From NCBI GenBank assembly GCA_030648645.1, contig JAUSHL010000014.1:1-34522 (forward strand): DNA of 34,522 bases. The letters run 5' to 3'. Origin of the DNA: Candidatus Daviesbacteria bacterium. Its GTDB lineage: Bacteria; Patescibacteriota; Microgenomatia; Daviesbacterales; UBA10151. Of the stretch, positions 4,100 through 27,711 are shown in pieces; positions within the stretch are counted from its first letter, which is position 1, and each line of letters opens with the position of its first letter. The notes under the pieces were generated by a model, which was not told the DNA's origin, did no database searches, and worked only from the letters and a program-made list of their open reading frames with translations. The position numbers and the translations under genes were made by a program.

Positions 4100-4393
4100 T
4101 TAGACAATATTTTCATATAGATCCTCGAAGCTGGGATTAAAGGATTTTATTAGGTCTAACTTTTTTTTACGTGAGCCACCTTTAATTTGTTTCTCTCTAT
4201 TTATTGCTTCCTTAATATCTTCATAAACTTCAAACCAGACAAGTTTGCTGATATTATACTGAGAAGTAAATCCAGGTACTAGTTTTTCTCGATGTTCATA
4301 AATTCTTCTTACAAGATTATTTGTTACTCCAGTATAAAGGACATTATTTATTTTATTCGTGGCAATATAGACATAATAATATTTGATTTGCAT
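4100..4393 (-). CDS. GIY-YIG endonuclease domain protein (UPF0213-like)
   Basis: MQIKYYYVYIATNKINNVLYTGVTNNLVRRIYEHREK...; the longer ORF start (4516) reads through repeats, so the internal ATG at 4393 is preferred. Confidence 0.85.
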   Translation of the reverse strand: MQIKYYYVYIATNKINNVLYTGVTNNLVRRIYEHREKLVPGFTSQYNISKLVWFEVYEDIKEAINREKQIKGGSRKKKLDLIKSFNPSFEDLYENIV

Positions 4394-4409
4394 ATACACA
4401 TTATAATAG

Positions 4410-4499
4410 AGATTGCTTTGCTTCGCTCGCAATGACAGTGATATAAGTTCGCAATGACAGAAAAAGGAATGAGATTGCTTCGCTTTGCTCGCAATGACA
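4410..4499. repeat. Two CATTGCGAG-type repeat copies
   Basis: GATTGCTTTGCTTCGCTCGCAATGAC and GATTGCTTCGCTTTGCTCGCAATGAC. Confidence 0.75.
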
Positions 4500-4548
4500 A
4501 GTCTGTACATTCGCAATCAGGAAAATAAAATGCTAGAATTATCACAAT

Positions 4549-14320: not shown

Positions 14321-14599
14321 TCAGATATTTTCATATAGGTCTTCCCAATTTGGATTATTGTTTTCTATTAATTCCAATTTCCATCTACGCTTCCATCTTT
14401 TAATTTTCTTTTCTTGAATTATTGCCTGTTCAATATCCTGATGTTCTTCATAGTAAACAAGTGTATGAACGCCATATTTATTTGTAAAACCTTTTACAAG
14501 ATCATTCTTGTGTTCCCAAATTCTCTTTTTTAGATTACTGGTTACTCCTGTATACAATGTTCCATTTCTTTGGCTGGCTAAAATATAAACAAAGTACAT
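14321..14599 (-). CDS. GIY-YIG endonuclease domain protein (UPF0213-like)
   Basis: MYFVYILASQRNGTLYTGVTSNLKKRIWEHKNDLVKGFT... Confidence 0.9.
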   Translation of the reverse strand: MYFVYILASQRNGTLYTGVTSNLKKRIWEHKNDLVKGFTNKYGVHTLVYYEEHQDIEQAIIQEKKIKRWKRRWKLELIENNNPNWEDLYENI

Positions 14600-15754: not shown

Positions 15755-15895
15755 TATTCTTCGAACGAAGTGAGAAGTTTCAATTGAAATTATGATATTT
15801 TTTATGGTAAGTTCTCGTCATCCGCCAGTTGGCGGATTCCTCGAACAATATTATTCTTCGAACGAAGTGAGAAGTTACTATATGAATTATGATAA
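15753..15895 (+). repeat. Local repeat family, left block (module copies at 15753 and 15841)
   Basis: ATTCTTCGAACGAAGTGAGAAGTT twice plus GTTCTC-hairpin-TCGAACAATAT; 39-bp core at 15841-15879 is identical to 16236-16274. Confidence 0.85.
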
Positions 15896-15904
15896 CCTTA
15901 AGAT

Positions 15905-16192
15905 ATGTTCTCACCTAAAGATTCGAACAATAGTCAGTGGAAATGGTATGTATATATTATTGAATGTAAAGATGGATTGTATTATACAGGGATGACTTGG
16001 AAACCTTCTATAAGATTTGAACAACATCTTTCTGGATTGGGAAGTAAATTTACAGCTAAACATGGAGTTCAAAAGTTAGTTTACCTTGAAGAACATGAAG
16101 ACTTAGAATTAGCAAGAAGAAGAGAAATCCAAATTAAGGATTTTAGTAGAAAAAAGAAAAAAATCCTAATTGATAGTTTTAATGATTTATAA
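15905..16192 (+). CDS. GIY-YIG endonuclease domain protein, flanked by direct repeats
   Basis: WYVYIIECKDGLYYTGMTWKPSIRFEQHLSG... Confidence 0.88.
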   Translation: MFSPKDSNNSQWKWYVYIIECKDGLYYTGMTWKPSIRFEQHLSGLGSKFTAKHGVQKLVYLEEHEDLELARRREIQIKDFSRKKKKILIDSFNDL

Positions 16193-16213
16193 TTATAATA
16201 TTGGTTCTTAATA

Positions 16214-16335
16214 GTTCTCTCCGGCAACTGCCGGATCGAACAATATTATTCTTCGAACGAAGTGAGAAGTTACTTTAAGAATTATAATATTTTCATGAGA
16301 AAGTTCTCTCCGGCAACTGCCGGATCGAACAATAT
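16214..16335 (+). repeat. Local repeat family, right block
   Basis: GTTCTCTCCGGCAACTGCCGGATCGAACAATAT at 16214 and 16303; 39-bp core 16236-16274. Confidence 0.85.
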
Positions 16336-18146: not shown

Positions 18147-18155
18147 TAATCACAT

Positions 18156-18214
18156 GGCGCGTTCGTCTAGTGGTTAGGACGGGTCGAGGCTTCGACCTAA
18201 TCGCGGGTTCGAAT
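18156..18214 (+). pseudogene. Truncated tRNA-Glu copy with replaced anticodon arm and missing T-stem/acceptor 3' strands
   Basis: Identical to tRNA-Glu over GGCGCGTTCGTCTAGTGGTTAGGACG and TAATCGCGGGTTCGAAT. Anticodon arm is GGTCGAGGCTTCGACC instead of CTGGGTTTTCATCCCAG. The 3' part is replaced by AAATGATTTAGG. Confidence 0.88.
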
Positions 18215-18233
18215 AAATGATTTAGGACTAAAG

Positions 18234-18482
18234 ATGATTTGTGCTTATATATTAGAATGTTGTGATAAGACTTATTATGTTGGGAGTACAAATAATATAG
18301 AACGAAGGTTAGTACAACATAATATGAAACAATGTCAGCATACTAAAAGTAGATTGCCAATAAAGTTGGTTTTTACAAGAGAATTTAGCACATTGAAAGA
18401 GGCAAGAGGATATGAGTATTTTCTTAAAAGACAAAGAAATATAAGCTTTTACAGAAAATTAATAAATGGCGCGTTCGTCTAG
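18234..18482 (+). CDS. GIY-YIG endonuclease between truncated and intact tRNA-Glu
   Basis: MICAYILECCDKTYYVGSTNNIERRLVQHNM...; last codons and TAG stop (18480-18482) lie in the tRNA-Glu 5' end. Confidence 0.85.
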   Translation: MICAYILECCDKTYYVGSTNNIERRLVQHNMKQCQHTKSRLPIKLVFTREFSTLKEARGYEYFLKRQRNISFYRKLINGAFV

Positions 18483-18540
18483 TGGTTAGGACGCTGGGTT
18501 TTCATCCCAGTAATCGCGGGTTCGAATCCCGCACGCGCTA
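18468..18540 (+). tRNA. tRNA-Glu(TTC)
   Basis: GGCGCGT-TC-GTCT-AGTGGTTA-GGAC-G-CTGGG-TTTTCAT-CCCAG-TAATC-GCGGG-TTCGAAT-CCCGC-ACGCGCT-A; full cloverleaf, no encoded CCA. Confidence 0.93.
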
Positions 18541-18575
18541 CTTTTAATTTGACTTTTGAATAATTTTTCTCTACA

Positions 18576-22212: not shown

Positions 22213-23418
22213 ATGAATTTACGACAAACAATAAAAATTGCCCTACGTGCTTTAAAAACCAATAAAACAAGATCAATCTTAACTATGTTGGGAGTAGTTA
22301 TTGGGGTGATGTCGGTTATTTTATTGGTATCAGTGGGTTCCGGACTACAAAAGTATGTCACAGATCAATTGGAAGGGATTGGCTCAAATTTAATTATCAT
22401 TATGCCTGGAAAAATTGATTTATCAAAGATGGGAGAAGGTGGAGGAGGAATGGGTTTGAATTTTATGACCTCCAAACTTACAGAAAAAGATGCCAAGGAT
22501 CTGGTTACAAATTCTAATTATATTTCAGCTGCTATTCCGGGAACTGCTGCTCAATCTGCCTTAAAATATGGAGATCAAAAAATGTTCTCAGAAGTAAATG
22601 GATTAATATATAACTTTAATGAAGTAATGAAGTCCCCACTGTCTGAGGGAGATTATTTTACTGAGAGTGATGATAGAGCTGGTAAAAAAGTAGTCGTAAT
22701 TGGTTCTGGCATTGCTGAGAAATTTTTTGGAGATGATGATCCAATTGGACAGAGAATTCAAGTTGGAGAAAATAGATTTACAGTGGTTGGTGTTTTAAAA
22801 AGTCGCGGTGTGGGAGGAAATAATTCACAGGATGGTGCCATTATTCCACTTCTGACTGCCAAAAGAATTTTTAATCAGGATAAAGTTAGTGTAATCTATC
22901 TCCAGGCAAAATCTGCAGATCAGGTAGATTTAGCAATTGAAGATGCTAAATCAATCTTAATGGAAAGATTAAAGGAGGATGAATTTTCAGTTCTAACTCA
23001 GAAAGATATGTTATCTGCTATCACTGGAATTTTAGGAACTTTAACTGCCGCACTAACTGGAATTGCTGCTATTTCTTTAATAGTGGGAGGAATTGGGATT
23101 ATGAATATTATGTTGGTTTCTGTCACAGAGCGAACCAAAGAAATTGGACTTCGAAAAGCACTTGGTGCTACTCCTAGTGTAATTTTAAATCAATTTTTAG
23201 TAGAAGCTGTAATTTTGTCTGTTGCAGGAGGGGTAATTGGCATAATTTTAGGAGCAGGAATCTCTTTGGTTTTGAGTAAATTTATTCCTACAGAAGTTAC
23301 TTTTTGGTTAGTCCTTTTGGCATTTGGGGTTTCAGCACTGGTGGGAATTATTTTTGGAGTGATGCCAGCCCGTAAAGCTTCGCGCTTAACTCCTATAGAA
23401 GCACTAAGGTTTGAGTAA
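22213..23418 (+). CDS. ABC transporter permease (MacB/FtsX family)
   Basis: ALRALKTNKTRSILTMLGVVIGVMSVILLVSVG, GGIGIMNIMLVSVTERTKEIGLRKALGA, ARKASRLTPIEALRFE. Confidence 0.94.
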   Translation: MNLRQTIKIALRALKTNKTRSILTMLGVVIGVMSVILLVSVGSGLQKYVTDQLEGIGSNLIIIMPGKIDLSKMGEGGGGMGLNFMTSKLTEKDAKDLVTNSNYISAAIPGTAAQSALKYGDQKMFSEVNGLIYNFNEVMKSPLSEGDYFTESDDRAGKKVVVIGSGIAEKFFGDDDPIGQRIQVGENRFTVVGVLKSRGVGGNNSQDGAIIPLLTAKRIFNQDKVSVIYLQAKSADQVDLAIEDAKSILMERLKEDEFSVLTQKDMLSAITGILGTLTAALTGIAAISLIVGGIGIMNIMLVSVTERTKEIGLRKALGATPSVILNQFLVEAVILSVAGGVIGIILGAGISLVLSKFIPTEVTFWLVLLAFGVSALVGIIFGVMPARKASRLTPIEALRFE

Positions 23419-23460: not shown

Positions 23461-23503
23461 AAGGCCTCGCCTTGATCTGTTTAGAACAAACTATATCATT
23501 ATT
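23461..23503 (+). repeat. Direct repeat L flanking the TA/Fic island
   Basis: Contains CTGTTTAGAACAAACTATATCATTATT (23477-23503), identical to 27041-27067. Confidence 0.85.
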
Positions 23504-23544
23504 TTGAAATTGAAAAATGATGATTTTTATGATATAATTATTAG

Positions 23545-23853
23545 GTGAAAGTGAAAAAACTGCCAGCTTTTTTAGAAAAGTATTTCTGGGATGTAAAATT
23601 TAATGAGATAGATCCTGAAGAAAATGCCCAATATGTGATAGCAAGGATTTTGCAAAAGGGTGACGAAAAAGCAATAAATTGGCTTTTTAAAAACTATTCA
23701 AAGGAACTTATTAAGGAAGTAGTGGTTGTACGGCGTGGGTTTTCACCAAAAACTGCTAATTTTTGGGCTTCATTGTTAAAAATTGATAAAAGAAAGGTGG
23801 TATGTTTACAAAAACCTTATCTACAAATGCGACAGCCTCTTTGGCCCTATTAG
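23545..23853 (+). CDS. DUF6922-like protein, putative antitoxin partner of the AbiEii-like protein
   Basis: LPAFLEKYFWDVKFNEIDPEENAQYVIARILQKGDEKAINWLFKNY...FWASLLKI; overlaps the downstream NTase gene; TTGAAA-17-TATAAT-N6-GTG. Confidence 0.7.
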   Translation: MKVKKLPAFLEKYFWDVKFNEIDPEENAQYVIARILQKGDEKAINWLFKNYSKELIKEVVVVRRGFSPKTANFWASLLKIDKRKVVCLQKPYLQMRQPLWPY

Positions 23854-24437
23854 GTAACTCTGGCATTCTTAACAAAGGTTATCTCGCCGGAGGAACTGCG
23901 TGTGCGCTTCAACTAGGTCATCGTATCTCCTTAGATCTTGATTTTTTTACGGATAAAGAATTTTCTACAGATTTAGTTTTAAACCAGTTGTCAAAACTTC
24001 ATGGATTCAAACTGGATGAAACTGAGGAATGGATTATTTTAGGTGGTTTTCCAAAGGTCAAATTCAGCTATTTTTATTACCCATATCCATTAATTAAAAA
24101 GGTAACTATTTTTTCCAAAGTTAACGTTTCATCATTAGAAGATATTTCTGCTATGAAAATTGCAGCTGTTTGTGAGAGAGGGACAAAAAGAGATTTTATT
24201 GATCTATATTTTTTAATTAAGAAAAAATTTTCTCTAGATGATATTCTTAATTTTTATGATAAAAAATATAAAAAGCTAGCAAGTAATTTTTTACATATTG
24301 TAAAAAGCCTTAATTATTTTGATGACGCAGAATCACAAAGTATGCCTGATATGTTGATTCCCGTTTCATGGGATGAAGTGAAGAAATTTTTTCAAGATCA
24401 GGTAATTTTACTTGCCAAAAGAAAATTAGGAATATAA
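23802..24437 (+). CDS. Nucleotidyltransferase AbiEii/AbiGii toxin family
   Basis: YLAGGTACALQLGHRISLDLDFFTDKEF; DISAMKIAAVCERGTKRDFIDLYFL. Confidence 0.9.
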   Translation: MFTKTLSTNATASLALLGNSGILNKGYLAGGTACALQLGHRISLDLDFFTDKEFSTDLVLNQLSKLHGFKLDETEEWIILGGFPKVKFSYFYYPYPLIKKVTIFSKVNVSSLEDISAMKIAAVCERGTKRDFIDLYFLIKKKFSLDDILNFYDKKYKKLASNFLHIVKSLNYFDDAESQSMPDMLIPVSWDEVKKFFQDQVILLAKRKLGI

Positions 24438-24455
24438 GTCACGAATTTCGTGGCT

Positions 24456-24606
24456 GTCATTGCGAGGAGCGTAGCGACGCGGCAATCTGATAAAAGATTC
24501 CCACGCTCTCCGGCGAAGCCGGAGGGTCGAATGGGTGGCAATCCCTAAAACAATATGTAGATTGCTTCCCTTCGACTTCGCTCAGGGTAAACTTGCTCGC
24601 AATGAC
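24456..24606. repeat. CATTGCGAG-type repeat composite with nested palindromes
   Basis: GTCATTGCGAGGAGCGTAGCGACGCGGCAATCT...AGATTGCTTCCCTTCGACTTCGCTCAGGGTAAACTTGCTCGCAATGAC. Confidence 0.8.
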
Positions 24607-24675
24607 AAATAATGTAACAATTTAGATTTCCGTTTTATGTAACAGTTTAGATTTCCATTAACAGTAAATAGGTAA

Positions 24676-24705
24676 CTTGACAAGTTGTCAAGAAAATATT
24701 ATATT
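24676..24705 (+). promoter_or_regulatory. TA promoter with palindromic operator over the -35
   Basis: CTTGACAAGTTGTCAAG palindrome (24676-24692); TTGACA-17-TATATT; ATG at 24712. Confidence 0.65.
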
Positions 24706-24711
24706 ATTGTC

Positions 24712-24951
24712 ATGTATCAATTAGCTGTAGGTCAATTTAAATCAAAATTTTCTGAGATGTTGGAGAAAGTGCGCATGGGAGAAAGCGTTGGTATTACTTA
24801 TGGTAAAAATAAAAAAAAGGTAGCAGCTCTAGTCCCATATAAAGAGTTAATGAAGCAAAAAAAGTTTAAATTGGGATTGCTCGAAGGTAAAGCTTCTTTT
24901 AAAATACATGATGATTTTAAGATGACTGACGAGGAATTCTTAAAGTTGTGA
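24712..24951 (+). CDS. Phd/YefM-type antitoxin
   Basis: YQLAVGQFKSKFSEMLEKVRMGESVGITYGKNKKKVAALVPYKEL; overlaps the toxin by GTGA. Confidence 0.85.
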   Translation: MYQLAVGQFKSKFSEMLEKVRMGESVGITYGKNKKKVAALVPYKELMKQKKFKLGLLEGKASFKIHDDFKMTDEEFLKL

Positions 24952-25346
24952 ATTATCTTGTTGATACTCATGTTTTATTATGGACTATATTATCTCCCAA
25001 AAAACTCTCCCGAAGGGTAAAAAATATTCTACTTGATCCGAAACTGATAAAATATGTAAGTGCAATAACCTTCTGGGAAATATCCCTTAAATATCAACTT
25101 AGAAAGATTGATTTGAAAGGAATTTTACCGGATAAACTGCCTATAATTGCTAAAGATACCGGTTTTGAGATTATAAATCTTGATTGCGATATAGCATCAT
25201 CCTTTCATAAACTTCCCAAGGTAAATCACAAAGATCCATTTGACAGGATGCTGGCTTGGCAGGCAATCAGGAAAGATTATTTTTTACTTACTCAAGATAA
25301 AGAATTCTCCAGTTATAATGACAATGGGTTAAATATTGTCTGGTAA
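24948..25346 (+). CDS. PIN-domain (VapC-like) toxin
   Basis: YLVDTHVLLWTI, SAITFWEISLKYQ, DPFDRMLAWQAI. Confidence 0.92.
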   Translation: MNYLVDTHVLLWTILSPKKLSRRVKNILLDPKLIKYVSAITFWEISLKYQLRKIDLKGILPDKLPIIAKDTGFEIINLDCDIASSFHKLPKVNHKDPFDRMLAWQAIRKDYFLLTQDKEFSSYNDNGLNIVW

Positions 25347-25419
25347 AGTTTTTTATTCAAACTTTGCGAATACCTCGTAGCTCCTCGAGTCTGAGCGACC
25401 TCGGAGTCGAAGACTTGCT

Positions 25420-25848
25420 ATGAGGATGAAGCAAATAAGTGATCAAACTTGCCCGAAGGGATACCCCGCAGTTTACTGCGGGGTAGTTTATTACCCATAT
25501 CCACTAATTAAAAAAATAAACATTTTTTCCAAAATTCAGATAGCGTCATTAGAAGATATTTCTGCTATGAAAATTGCTGCTATATGTGAAAGAGGAACAA
25601 AACGGGATTTTATTGATTTATATTTTTTAGCAAAAGAGTTTTCTTTTGAACAAATGCTGAAGTTTTTTGATCAAAAATATGGAGTTTTAAAGGATCAACT
25701 ATATATTATTCTTAGAAGTATGGAATATTTTGAAGATGCTGAGATGGATAAAATGCCAAATATGTTAGTTCCTGTGTCTTGGGAAGAGGTTAAAAAAAAT
25801 TTTCAAGATCAGGTTATTAAACTTGCTAAAAGAAAACTAAAAATCTAA
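25420..25848 (+). pseudogene. N-terminally truncated AbiEii-like paralog; homologous part starts at about 25488
   Basis: YYPYPLIKKINIFSKIQIASLEDISAMKIAAICERGTKRDFIDLYFL closely matches the 24061-24437 product; GG/DLDFF catalytic part missing; N-term is repeat-derived. Confidence 0.82.
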
Positions 25849-25887
25849 ACTTGGCCTTTGCAAGGCTTCGCTTTGCAAGAATTTGGT

Positions 25888-26949
25888 TCATTTAAAGTAG
25901 GTATTTAAAGCAAATTTATATTGATCAATAACTATTTTCTTAAGTTGATACAAACTGCCCTGTTCATAAAAAAGAATTAGAGCCTTTTTATATGTTGTCT
26001 CTTCGACACTGCGATAGGAAAGAGGATAAAAATCACTAGCCAATAAAATTGCATTTGAAAGCATTCTTGCTGTTCTTTTATTCCCATCAGCAAATGGTTG
26101 GATATAAGAAATCATTGCCAGAGTAATTAATGCCTTTTCCAGAGGGAACTTGGTTTTATTCAACACAAAAATATATTTTTCTAAAGCTTCTTTTATTTGC
26201 CATTCATTATCTAGGGGTTGATAAACAGTTCCGGTTATTCCTACTGCTTGATGACGAATACCAGTACTTATGCTTAAATTTTTTATTAAGAAATTATGCA
26301 TCTGGGAAATTTTAGAAATTGAGATTACACTAAAATCAGATATATTTTCTAAAATACTTTCAAATGCCTGTTTATGATTTAGAATCATTATTGCTTCCTC
26401 TTTTGGATGTCCCGGAGATGGAACTCCTTGTTTTATAAGGGTTTCAGTGTCAAGTAAAGAATAAGTGTTTCCTTCAATTTTAGATGATTTCCATGAAAGC
26501 TCAATGGTAAATCGTTCTAACTCTTTCAGATAAATATCCTTGCTGAGTGTTTTTGACTCATTAGAAAAACTTTTATTTACCTTATTTATTTCTTCAATTT
26601 CTTCTGAAGTAAAAAGTGGCTGAAGTTTTTCCAGAATTGTAAAATCAAAGTTTTTTTTTGTTTCAACTCTTTGGTCTGGTTCCTTGATAAAATATTGATC
26701 AATATCAATATATTTAAGGAGTGGATTTGAGTTAATGGGAAAATATCTGGTATTACGTCCTTTACCATCAACATGAACAGTACCTTTTTTTAATAAAAAG
26801 CTAAGGTCGCGGGAAATAGTTGGGACAGAGCCTGAGAAAGTATTTTCTAGGCTATTTTTGATTTCAAATCTGGAAATGCCTTCTGATTGACTGATTATTT
26901 CAAGAATGCGTTTTTGACGGGAGTTTATATTCGTATCATTCATATACAT
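25888..26949 (-). CDS. Fic-family protein with N-terminal winged-HTH
   Basis: SSKIEGNTYSL (inhibitory-helix-like motif), YIQPFADGNKRTARMLSN; HTH-like N-term SRFEIKNSL...ISRDLSFLLKKG. Confidence 0.9.
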   Translation of the reverse strand: MYMNDTNINSRQKRILEIISQSEGISRFEIKNSLENTFSGSVPTISRDLSFLLKKGTVHVDGKGRNTRYFPINSNPLLKYIDIDQYFIKEPDQRVETKKNFDFTILEKLQPLFTSEEIEEINKVNKSFSNESKTLSKDIYLKELERFTIELSWKSSKIEGNTYSLLDTETLIKQGVPSPGHPKEEAIMILNHKQAFESILENISDFSVISISKISQMHNFLIKNLSISTGIRHQAVGITGTVYQPLDNEWQIKEALEKYIFVLNKTKFPLEKALITLAMISYIQPFADGNKRTARMLSNAILLASDFYPLSYRSVEETTYKKALILFYEQGSLYQLKKIVIDQYKFALNTYFK

Positions 26950-26952
26950 TAA

Positions 26953-26971
26953 TCGTATCAGTATGATACGA
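26953..26971 (-). promoter_or_regulatory. Palindromic operator upstream of the Fic gene
   Basis: TCGTATCA-gta-TGATACGA, perfect 8-bp arms, between minus-strand -35 TTGACT and -10 TACGAT. Confidence 0.7.
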
Positions 26972-27024
26972 AGGAAGTCAACCCTTCAATTCATTTAAGG
27001 TTGATCCTAAACATCAACTGTACC

Positions 27025-27067
27025 AAGGTCAGGCCTTGGACTGTTTAGAACAAACTATATCATTATT
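27025..27067 (+). repeat. Direct repeat R flanking the TA/Fic island
   Basis: CTGTTTAGAACAAACTATATCATTATT at 27041-27067. Confidence 0.85.
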
Positions 27068-27135: not shown

Positions 27136-27711
27136 TTGATAATGATTCAAAAAAGAATAATTGTAGTAATAATCGTCTTTCTAACTTTAAGTTTAGGGTT
27201 ACTTTGGTTGGGGTGGGAGGCAGGTAAAGAAAATACCAAGCAATTAATTCAATCATCTGATCCTACTCCAACCTTGGAAGCTGTAGATCCTGTTAATCAG
27301 GAAACTGGAGTGTTGGTCACCAAAGTTGTGGACGGGGACACTATTGAAATTCAAGGAGGACAAAAAATCCGATATGTGGGTATTGATACTCCGGAAACTG
27401 TTGATCCGAGGAGAGCTGTAGGTTGTTTTGGTAAAGAAGCTTCAAAAATAAATAAAGAGTTAGTAGAAGGAAAAGTAGTTATTTTAGAAAAGGATATTAC
27501 TAATGTTGATAAATATAATAGATTACTCAGATATGTTTATTTAAAACAATCAGACGGTACCCTACTTTTTGTAAATGATTATCTTGTCAGAGAAGGGTAT
27601 GCTAAAAATTATACTTATCCTCCTGATGTTAAATTTAATGAACAATTTAGGCAAGCAGAGATAGAAGCCAGAGAAGCAAATAAAGGACTATGGAATAAAT
27701 GTACAAGTTAG
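27136..27711 (+). CDS. Staphylococcal-nuclease-like (thermonuclease) protein, membrane-anchored or secreted
   Basis: N-terminal TM, VVDGDTIEIQGGQKIRYVGIDTPE, DKYNRLLRYVYL, NKGLW. Confidence 0.92.
   Translation: MIMIQKRIIVVIIVFLTLSLGLLWLGWEAGKENTKQLIQSSDPTPTLEAVDPVNQETGVLVTKVVDGDTIEIQGGQKIRYVGIDTPETVDPRRAVGCFGKEASKINKELVEGKVVILEKDITNVDKYNRLLRYVYLKQSDGTLLFVNDYLVREGYAKNYTYPPDVKFNEQFRQAEIEAREANKGLWNKCTS

Follow-up and report, generated by a model that had tools for sequence, protein, structure and literature searches.

A 34,522-nucleotide stretch of DNA from Candidatus Daviesbacteria bacterium (GenBank assembly GCA_030648645.1, contig JAUSHL010000014.1; hereafter the window) contains a 3.5-kb island of toxin–antitoxin (TA) and Fic genes, which lies between a gene for a MacB-type permease and a gene for an SNase-family nuclease and is bracketed by direct repeats. 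Comparison with related genomes showed that the bracketed segment is an insertion. Its repeats are private to the locus, similarly bracketed accessory genes recur in the same genome above control levels, and ends of protein-coding and tRNA genes are duplicated at several of these sites. The best reading of the island is an insertion with long target duplication, a process known from Helicobacter pylori, where it involves restriction–modification (RM) genes; in the present genome the cargo consists of TA, Fic, GIY-YIG and other genes. We put at roughly two in three the probability that the island is foreign cargo in the macB–SNase junction and that the repeats are scars of its insertion rather than the element's own ends. 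These observations suggest that TA, Fic and similar “selfish” genes move without carrying any transposase.

The outer direct repeat

The outer repeat, CTGTTTAGAACAAACTATATCATTATT, is a perfect 27-bp direct repeat, which a repeat scan located on the forward strand at 23477–23503 and, upstream of the SNase gene, at 27041–27067. The initial annotation had described these 27-bp copies with an extension to about 43 bp, and both are present, with 88% identity (38/43) over 43 bp. All five mismatches fall within the first 16 columns, upstream of the perfect core (p 0.005). This diverged part of the left copy (23461–23476) matches the right copy in 11 of 16 positions and contains a small hairpin (AAGGC-CTC-GCCTT), and the corresponding part of the right copy (27025–27040) contains the hairpin CCAAGG..CCTTGG. 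GGCC hairpins resembling the left one recur in the genome. About 4e-7 exact repeats of 27 bp are expected by chance in the window, and none was present in 100 shuffled versions of it. An assembly artefact is unlikely, as the copies differ upstream and similar brackets hold diverged gene copies.

In the source genome (G000; 962,049 bases in 45 contigs, of which the window is contig 17), the 27-mer occurs exactly twice. No third copy was found there, and no copy at all in 94 relatives, with up to three mismatches allowed; its 21-bp core has no match in the GTDB or viral collections, from which near-identical records may have been omitted. The search for other loci proposed in the initial annotation thus returned none, and the 27-mer is not the common promoter or terminator repeat that would have spoken against an island. 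The outer repeat matters for bracketing an insertion, not for its mere existence.

Empty sites in related genomes

The relatives compared all belong to other genera. Three of them (G012, G018 and G027) keep the gene order macA–macB–macB'–(SNase)–DUF192–...–lexA without the island, and none of the three has island genes at the syntenic site. In G012, a complete relative, macA, the macB ATPase, the macB permease, SNase, DUF192 and the following gene stand in the same order, and the stop codon of the permease gene overlaps the SNase start. In G018, a different single gene occupies the gap, and in G027 the permease gene leads directly to DUF192, the SNase gene being missing. In the window, the native left flank is the MacB-type ABC permease gene (22213–23418, forward strand; Pfam), which is syntenic in all three relatives, and the native right flank is the SNase-family nuclease gene (27136–27711, forward strand; Pfam), which directly follows the permease in G012.

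The initial annotation had suggested looking for an empty site with a single repeat copy; the three relatives have an island-free junction, with intergenic DNA too short or too different to show such a copy. The annotation's proposal of a cargo island exchanged through the repeats or by a trans-acting recombinase stands in part. The syntenic empty sites support a cargo insertion between direct repeats; the repeat, being private, is not a shared recombination site, and the island is not a single unit, since its VapBC genes sit in a second, older duplication. The trans-acting recombinase found no support, as none of the three tyrosine recombinases of G000 is itself bracketed and the repeat is private to the locus.

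Recurrence of bracketed accessory genes

To place the island in its genomic context, G000 was read in stretches and its two-copy local direct repeats were listed. Bracketed genes include HicAB (twice), ParE/Phd, DUF5615/DUF433, a BrnT/CopG pair, Gp49/HTH, a PIN toxin, a PBECR3/DUF2283 pair and Fic/Doc proteins (four of the ten Fic genes in the genome). Bro-N, a pair of PaaX-like proteins, three Y1 transposases and a number of non-TA genes are bracketed as well. Many brackets have flanking genes that lie next to each other in G012. Controls were gene-boundary pairs and housekeeping loci. With a match scoring of +1/−2, the flanks of 8 of 38 insertions in G000 relative to G012 reached a score of at least 20, compared with 32 of 700 length-matched gene-boundary pairs (4.6%; Fisher 5e-4). 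Insertions in G012 relative to G000 were never bracketed (0/23; p=0.017 against 8/38); G012 contains no HicA or DUF6922 genes, and its lack of brackets may therefore reflect missing cargo.

Brackets also recur in relatives. The DUF6922–AbiEii gene pair of the island, which is found in 28 of the 95 family or class genomes searched as well as in Nealsonbacteria and Omnitrophota, is tightly bracketed by unrelated repeats at three other loci. In Candidatus Nealsonbacteria (L100), the repeat is 52 bp long and perfect, and its right copy coincides with the 5' coding end of the gene that follows; the repeats in G094 (L247) and G021 (L234) measure 56 and 25 bp, and a locus in G091 (L236) has a weaker 17-bp match at a gene start. 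HicA(B) loci of relatives scored at least 18 in 7 of 28 cases, compared with 2 of 114 housekeeping windows (p 1.6e-4). Both came from the 85 windows around macB, whereas none of the 29 SNase loci reached this score; they are duplicated macB 3' ends around inserted genes (L044 and L052), and hence further examples rather than noise.

Duplicated gene and tRNA ends

Many accessory units sit between private direct repeats, and the repeat is often the duplicated end of the adjacent native gene. Such duplicated ends were found for spoU (C9), htpX (L261), macB (L044, L052), tRNA-Glu (window) and tRNA-Asn (contig 25, C25). At C9, a Fic gene stands between the start of a SpoU methylase gene and an incomplete copy of spoU; a further partial copy, the third, is found 6 kb away. 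At L261, HicBA lies upstream of htpX (peptidase M48), of which the upstream region and the first codons are duplicated. In the window, a GIY-YIG open reading frame (ORF; 18234–18482) abuts the intact tRNA-Glu gene (18468–18541), and a partial tRNA-Glu copy to its left (18154–18217, forward strand) is identical over 28 bp and then diverges. Contig 25 (L128, 16077–16470) shows the same arrangement, with a GIY-YIG ORF at tRNA-Asn, and on contig 43 (L146) a 16-bp repeat resembling a tRNA 3' end lies near a GIY-YIG ORF. The spoU, htpX, tRNA-Glu and tRNA-Asn genes all remain intact, which is expected in a compact genome if only insertions of this sort persist.

Origin of the repeats

Each locus has a repeat of its own length and sequence, which speaks both against a single recombinase acting on a single site and against the ends of a transposon. 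Several pairs have perfect cores of 27–53 bp next to or within diverged similarity, as expected from recombination between diverged copies. The longest perfect runs exceed random placement at C20 (p 0.015), L261 (p 0.002) and the AbiEii pair inside the island (p 0.006). This size is close to the lower length limit of bacterial homologous recombination. We regard recombination of incoming DNA at matches of about 30 bp as the most likely mechanism, with a putative enzymology. The incoming DNA would carry no transposase of its own and would join the chromosome at such a match, either by single crossover of a circle or by homology-facilitated illegitimate recombination of transforming DNA. The duplication would arise during the insertion itself, and addiction to the TA modules would help to retain the new segment. 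G000 contains a DprA gene; ComEC was not identified in it.

Several points weigh against reading the repeats as insertion scars. G000 is rich in two-copy direct repeats of at least 20 bp, so that the outer repeat alone is not exceptional, and 4.6% of the controls also score at least 20. The similarity of the 16 bp upstream of the core may in part be just a shared hairpin type that recurs in the genome. The relatives with empty sites come from other genera and have almost no intergenic DNA there, or DNA too different to show a single repeat copy. In 30 of the 38 insertions no repeat could be detected, the perfect cores lack significance at C9, C42 and L258, and some other brackets are palindromes of the repetitive extragenic palindromic (REP) type rather than duplicated targets. 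Finally, a specificity for TA genes is not established, as glycosyltransferase, adenylyltransferase and Y1-transposase genes and other non-TA accessory genes are bracketed too.

Among other explanations, repair of a staggered break or nick, or template switching during replication, could have captured a foreign fragment and re-copied the target without homology between cargo and target. It accounts for the variable lengths and private sequences of the repeats, and no diverged donor has to be assumed for long, near-identical pairs such as those at L258 (105/107) and C19 (62 bp, perfect). It is the main alternative for pairs that are near-identical throughout, but alone leaves the perfect cores within diverged similarity (C17, C20, L261 and the inner AbiEii repeat) unexplained, and we consider it unlikely for the island.

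Less likely still is a remnant of an integrative element, such as a phage satellite, plasmid or integrative mobilizable element, which entered through a tyrosine recombinase, left its attachment (att) sites attL and attR as the repeats and lost all but its addiction modules. In its favour, att sites typically show a perfect core with diverged flanks and a duplicated gene end, the duplicated targets include tRNA genes, and spoU served as a target in tandem at C9; TA modules would also be hard to delete. However, the island has no integrase or fragment of one, as membership among site-specific elements would require, and the tyrosine recombinases of G000 are unbracketed (0/3). The core sequence is different at every locus and in every genome, units are as small as a bare TA operon of 0.5–1 kb, and the insertions affect 5' gene ends and promoters in addition to 3' ends. 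A phage origin was rejected because no match to phage DNA was found, and a plasmid origin because only distant AbiEii proteins matched, with at most 37% identity. A shared att site was rejected because neither the 27-mer nor its core was found in relatives or in the large collections, and a dif/Xer-like site because the 11-6-11 layout fits poorly by eye and no copy occurs in relatives. We found nothing in support of a shared att site or a dedicated recombinase.

A classical transposon or insertion sequence, including one with an HUH Y1/REP-associated transposase, of which the repeats would be target duplications or ends, is very improbable. Three of the bracketed genes in G000 do encode Y1_Tnp proteins and several repeats are REP-like hairpins, but the scan detected no inverted terminal repeats at the island ends, no transposase lies inside, the 27-mer recurs nowhere else in G000 as transposon ends would, and repeat lengths range from 17 to more than 100 bp between loci. 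To our knowledge, Y1 transposases make no target duplication, which also counts against this origin. Equally remote is a shared regulatory element (part of an operator or promoter) or common intergenic repeat unrelated to the insertion: both copies lie upstream of genes and follow a hairpin, and a strong promoter-like site (23510–23538) follows the left copy, but this site is 3' of the repeat and outside it, the repeat position matches the insertion limits, only two copies exist in the genome and none in relatives, and no Rfam family matched, which likewise speaks against an RNA element.

Relation to known systems

Nobusato et al. are said to have described, in Gene in 2000 (259:99), the insertion of H. 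pylori RM genes with long target duplication. In this species, inserted RM genes lie between target duplications of around 100 bp, and no mobile element is known to be involved (PMC3874152, PMC3031569 and the CGAT paper, PMC1643837). A review assigns long duplications to RM systems alone (PMC3874152), and a 2009 TA review cites the work on long target duplication only for the point that addiction and apparent mobility are common to RM and TA systems. In our partial literature library, we found no account of TA genes bracketed in this way in Patescibacteria.

The island resembles these RM insertions in its addiction-type genes, the lack of a known mobile element and the long, variable direct repeats of the target. 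It is absent from relatives at the syntenic site and has private direct repeats at both insertion limits. The cargo here differs, being TA, Fic, GIY-YIG and other small genes rather than RM genes, and so does the host, a small-genome, Patescibacteria-like lineage. Cores of 20–60 bp are common here, compared with about 100 bp in the review. The outer repeat of 27 bp perfect and 43 bp at 88% identity is shorter than the described range, and the inner repeat of about 365 bp is just 75% identical; we therefore class the island as a variant rather than a strict member of this type.

Other known systems share fewer features. Integron and superintegron cassettes are likewise small units between repeats and often carry TA genes, but here each locus has its own repeat in place of a common attC-type site, and an integron integrase was not identified. 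In integrative elements at gene ends, direct repeats (attL and attR) likewise re-create the end of the interrupted host gene, whereas the units described here have no integrase, differ in their cores everywhere and carry minimal cargo. The type IV TA system AbiE (PMC3985639) resembles the first operon of the island, which encodes an AbiEii-family nucleotidyltransferase with the catalytic motif GG..DLDFF in a two-gene arrangement; the partner here is a DUF6922 protein (PF21956 only) instead of an AbiEi antitoxin, and the two genes overlap by 52 nt.

Scars of this type bear on the open question of how chromosomal TA genes move between genomes when no mobile element is visible. A private direct repeat that duplicates a gene end would make single insertions datable and countable and target preferences readable, and many small genomes could then be used to compare models of recombination, break repair and att sites. 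A further lesson is that direct repeats specific to one locus are not necessarily attachment sites when they surround a small island. As a tentative extension, bare TA operons of 0.5–1 kb may be minimal mobile units in Patescibacteria-like genomes. They would insert repeatedly into gene ends, promoters and tRNA genes along a route that needs no transposase, duplicates 17–110 bp of target and so spares the host gene. This route would parallel that of the H. pylori RM genes and might be a main one by which TA genes spread.

Gene content and probable composite structure of the island

ORFs were called mechanically and assigned with Pfam. This bore out the gene content given in the initial annotation (DUF6922, AbiEii, Phd–PIN, truncated AbiEii and Fic), with the Phd match below cut-off, and the gene listing and Pfam also agreed with it in placing no transposase or integrase between the repeat copies. 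The first operon, on the forward strand, consists of a DUF6922 protein gene (23545–23853; PF21956, 2.7e-17), a putative antitoxin partner, and an AbiEii-type nucleotidyltransferase gene (23802–24437; PF08843, 5.4e-13), a putative toxin with an intact motif in translation. The identical 52-nt overlap occurs in the Nealsonbacteria locus and, judging by the conserved pair order, in most loci of relatives. DUF6922–AbiEii is a conserved overlapping gene pair at L100 (4738–5618) and L229–L248. No literature on DUF6922 was found in the partial library.

Downstream lies a cluster of genome-wide repeats (24438–24684), which consists of TCATTGCGAG/CTCGCAATGACA palindromes and a double ATGTAACARTTTAGATTTCC unit and has 57 matches in the genome. 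The palindromes (TCATTGCGAG...CTCGCAATGACA) and the double unit represent two abundant families, present in at least 50 other places in G000. The double ATGTAACARTTTAGATTTCC unit precedes a promoter-like TTGAC and resembles multi-site transposon ends or an operator.

The cluster is followed on the forward strand by a Phd/YefM-like antitoxin gene (24685–24951), which may start at an ATG at 24712, and a PIN-domain, VapC-like toxin gene (24948–25346; PF01850, 4.1e-11). The VapBC assignment combines this PIN match with a weak adjacent Phd-like partner (PF02604, E 3e-4; TIGR01552, E 0.0016; both below cut-off). Next is a C-terminal AbiEii fragment (25487–25848, forward strand), which matches PF08843 from profile position 130 on and lacks the catalytic N-terminal part. 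On the reverse strand, a Fic protein gene (25888–26949; PF02661, 1e-11) encodes an N-terminal winged-helix-like region. Its motif, IQPFADGNKR, has Gln in place of the catalytic His of HPFx(D/E)GN(G/K)R, the mark of an active Fic AMP-transferase, whereas seven other Fic proteins of G000 retain HPF...GNGR. Judged by this motif, the island Fic may be inactive or altered.

The island looks composite, built in at least two steps. The AbiEii 3' half (24073–24437, forward strand) is about 75% identical to the fragment at 25487–25848, with a longest perfect tract of 32 bp, and this duplication of about 365 bp brackets VapBC and the repeat cluster. With the AbiEii 3' half present twice and VapBC between the copies, the outer pattern is repeated at a larger scale and a greater age. 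One step would have brought the DUF6922–AbiEii TA operon, bracketed by the outer repeat, and another VapBC, bracketed by the AbiEii duplication; the Fic gene could have arrived with either unit or separately. Two separately acquired AbiEii operons, one of them truncated, would look similar to an internal duplication.

Other repeat-associated genes

The window contains four small ORFs with a GIY-YIG domain (4100–4516, 14321–14599, 15905–16192 and 18234–18482), and G000 at least 11, compared with 4 in G012. The ORF at 15905–16192 is flanked by 54-bp direct repeats, at 15841 and 16236, of which 39 bp are perfect; this third bracketed example in the window spans 15841–16289 on the forward strand. 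At the contig start, an ORF with a LAGLIDADG-like domain (17–640) is possibly an intein or a homing endonuclease.

Further arrangements were seen elsewhere in G000. On contig 19 (L156, 1516–2656), a Bro-N gene and the ORF after it are each preceded by a copy of a 62-bp perfect repeat that contains a promoter and a start codon, so that both have the same promoter and ATG. On contigs 15 (L119, 4412–5000) and 18 (L121, 11279–12062), single PaaX-like genes lie inside direct repeats that contain palindromes (e.g. GTGACGATCGTCAC), and the corresponding sites in G012 are cleanly empty, with gaps of 13–15 bp. On contig 26 (L129, 3968–7717), a repeat of about 120 bp with a GGGG palindrome occurs in four imperfect copies with one unrelated ORF between each, forming a cassette-like array.

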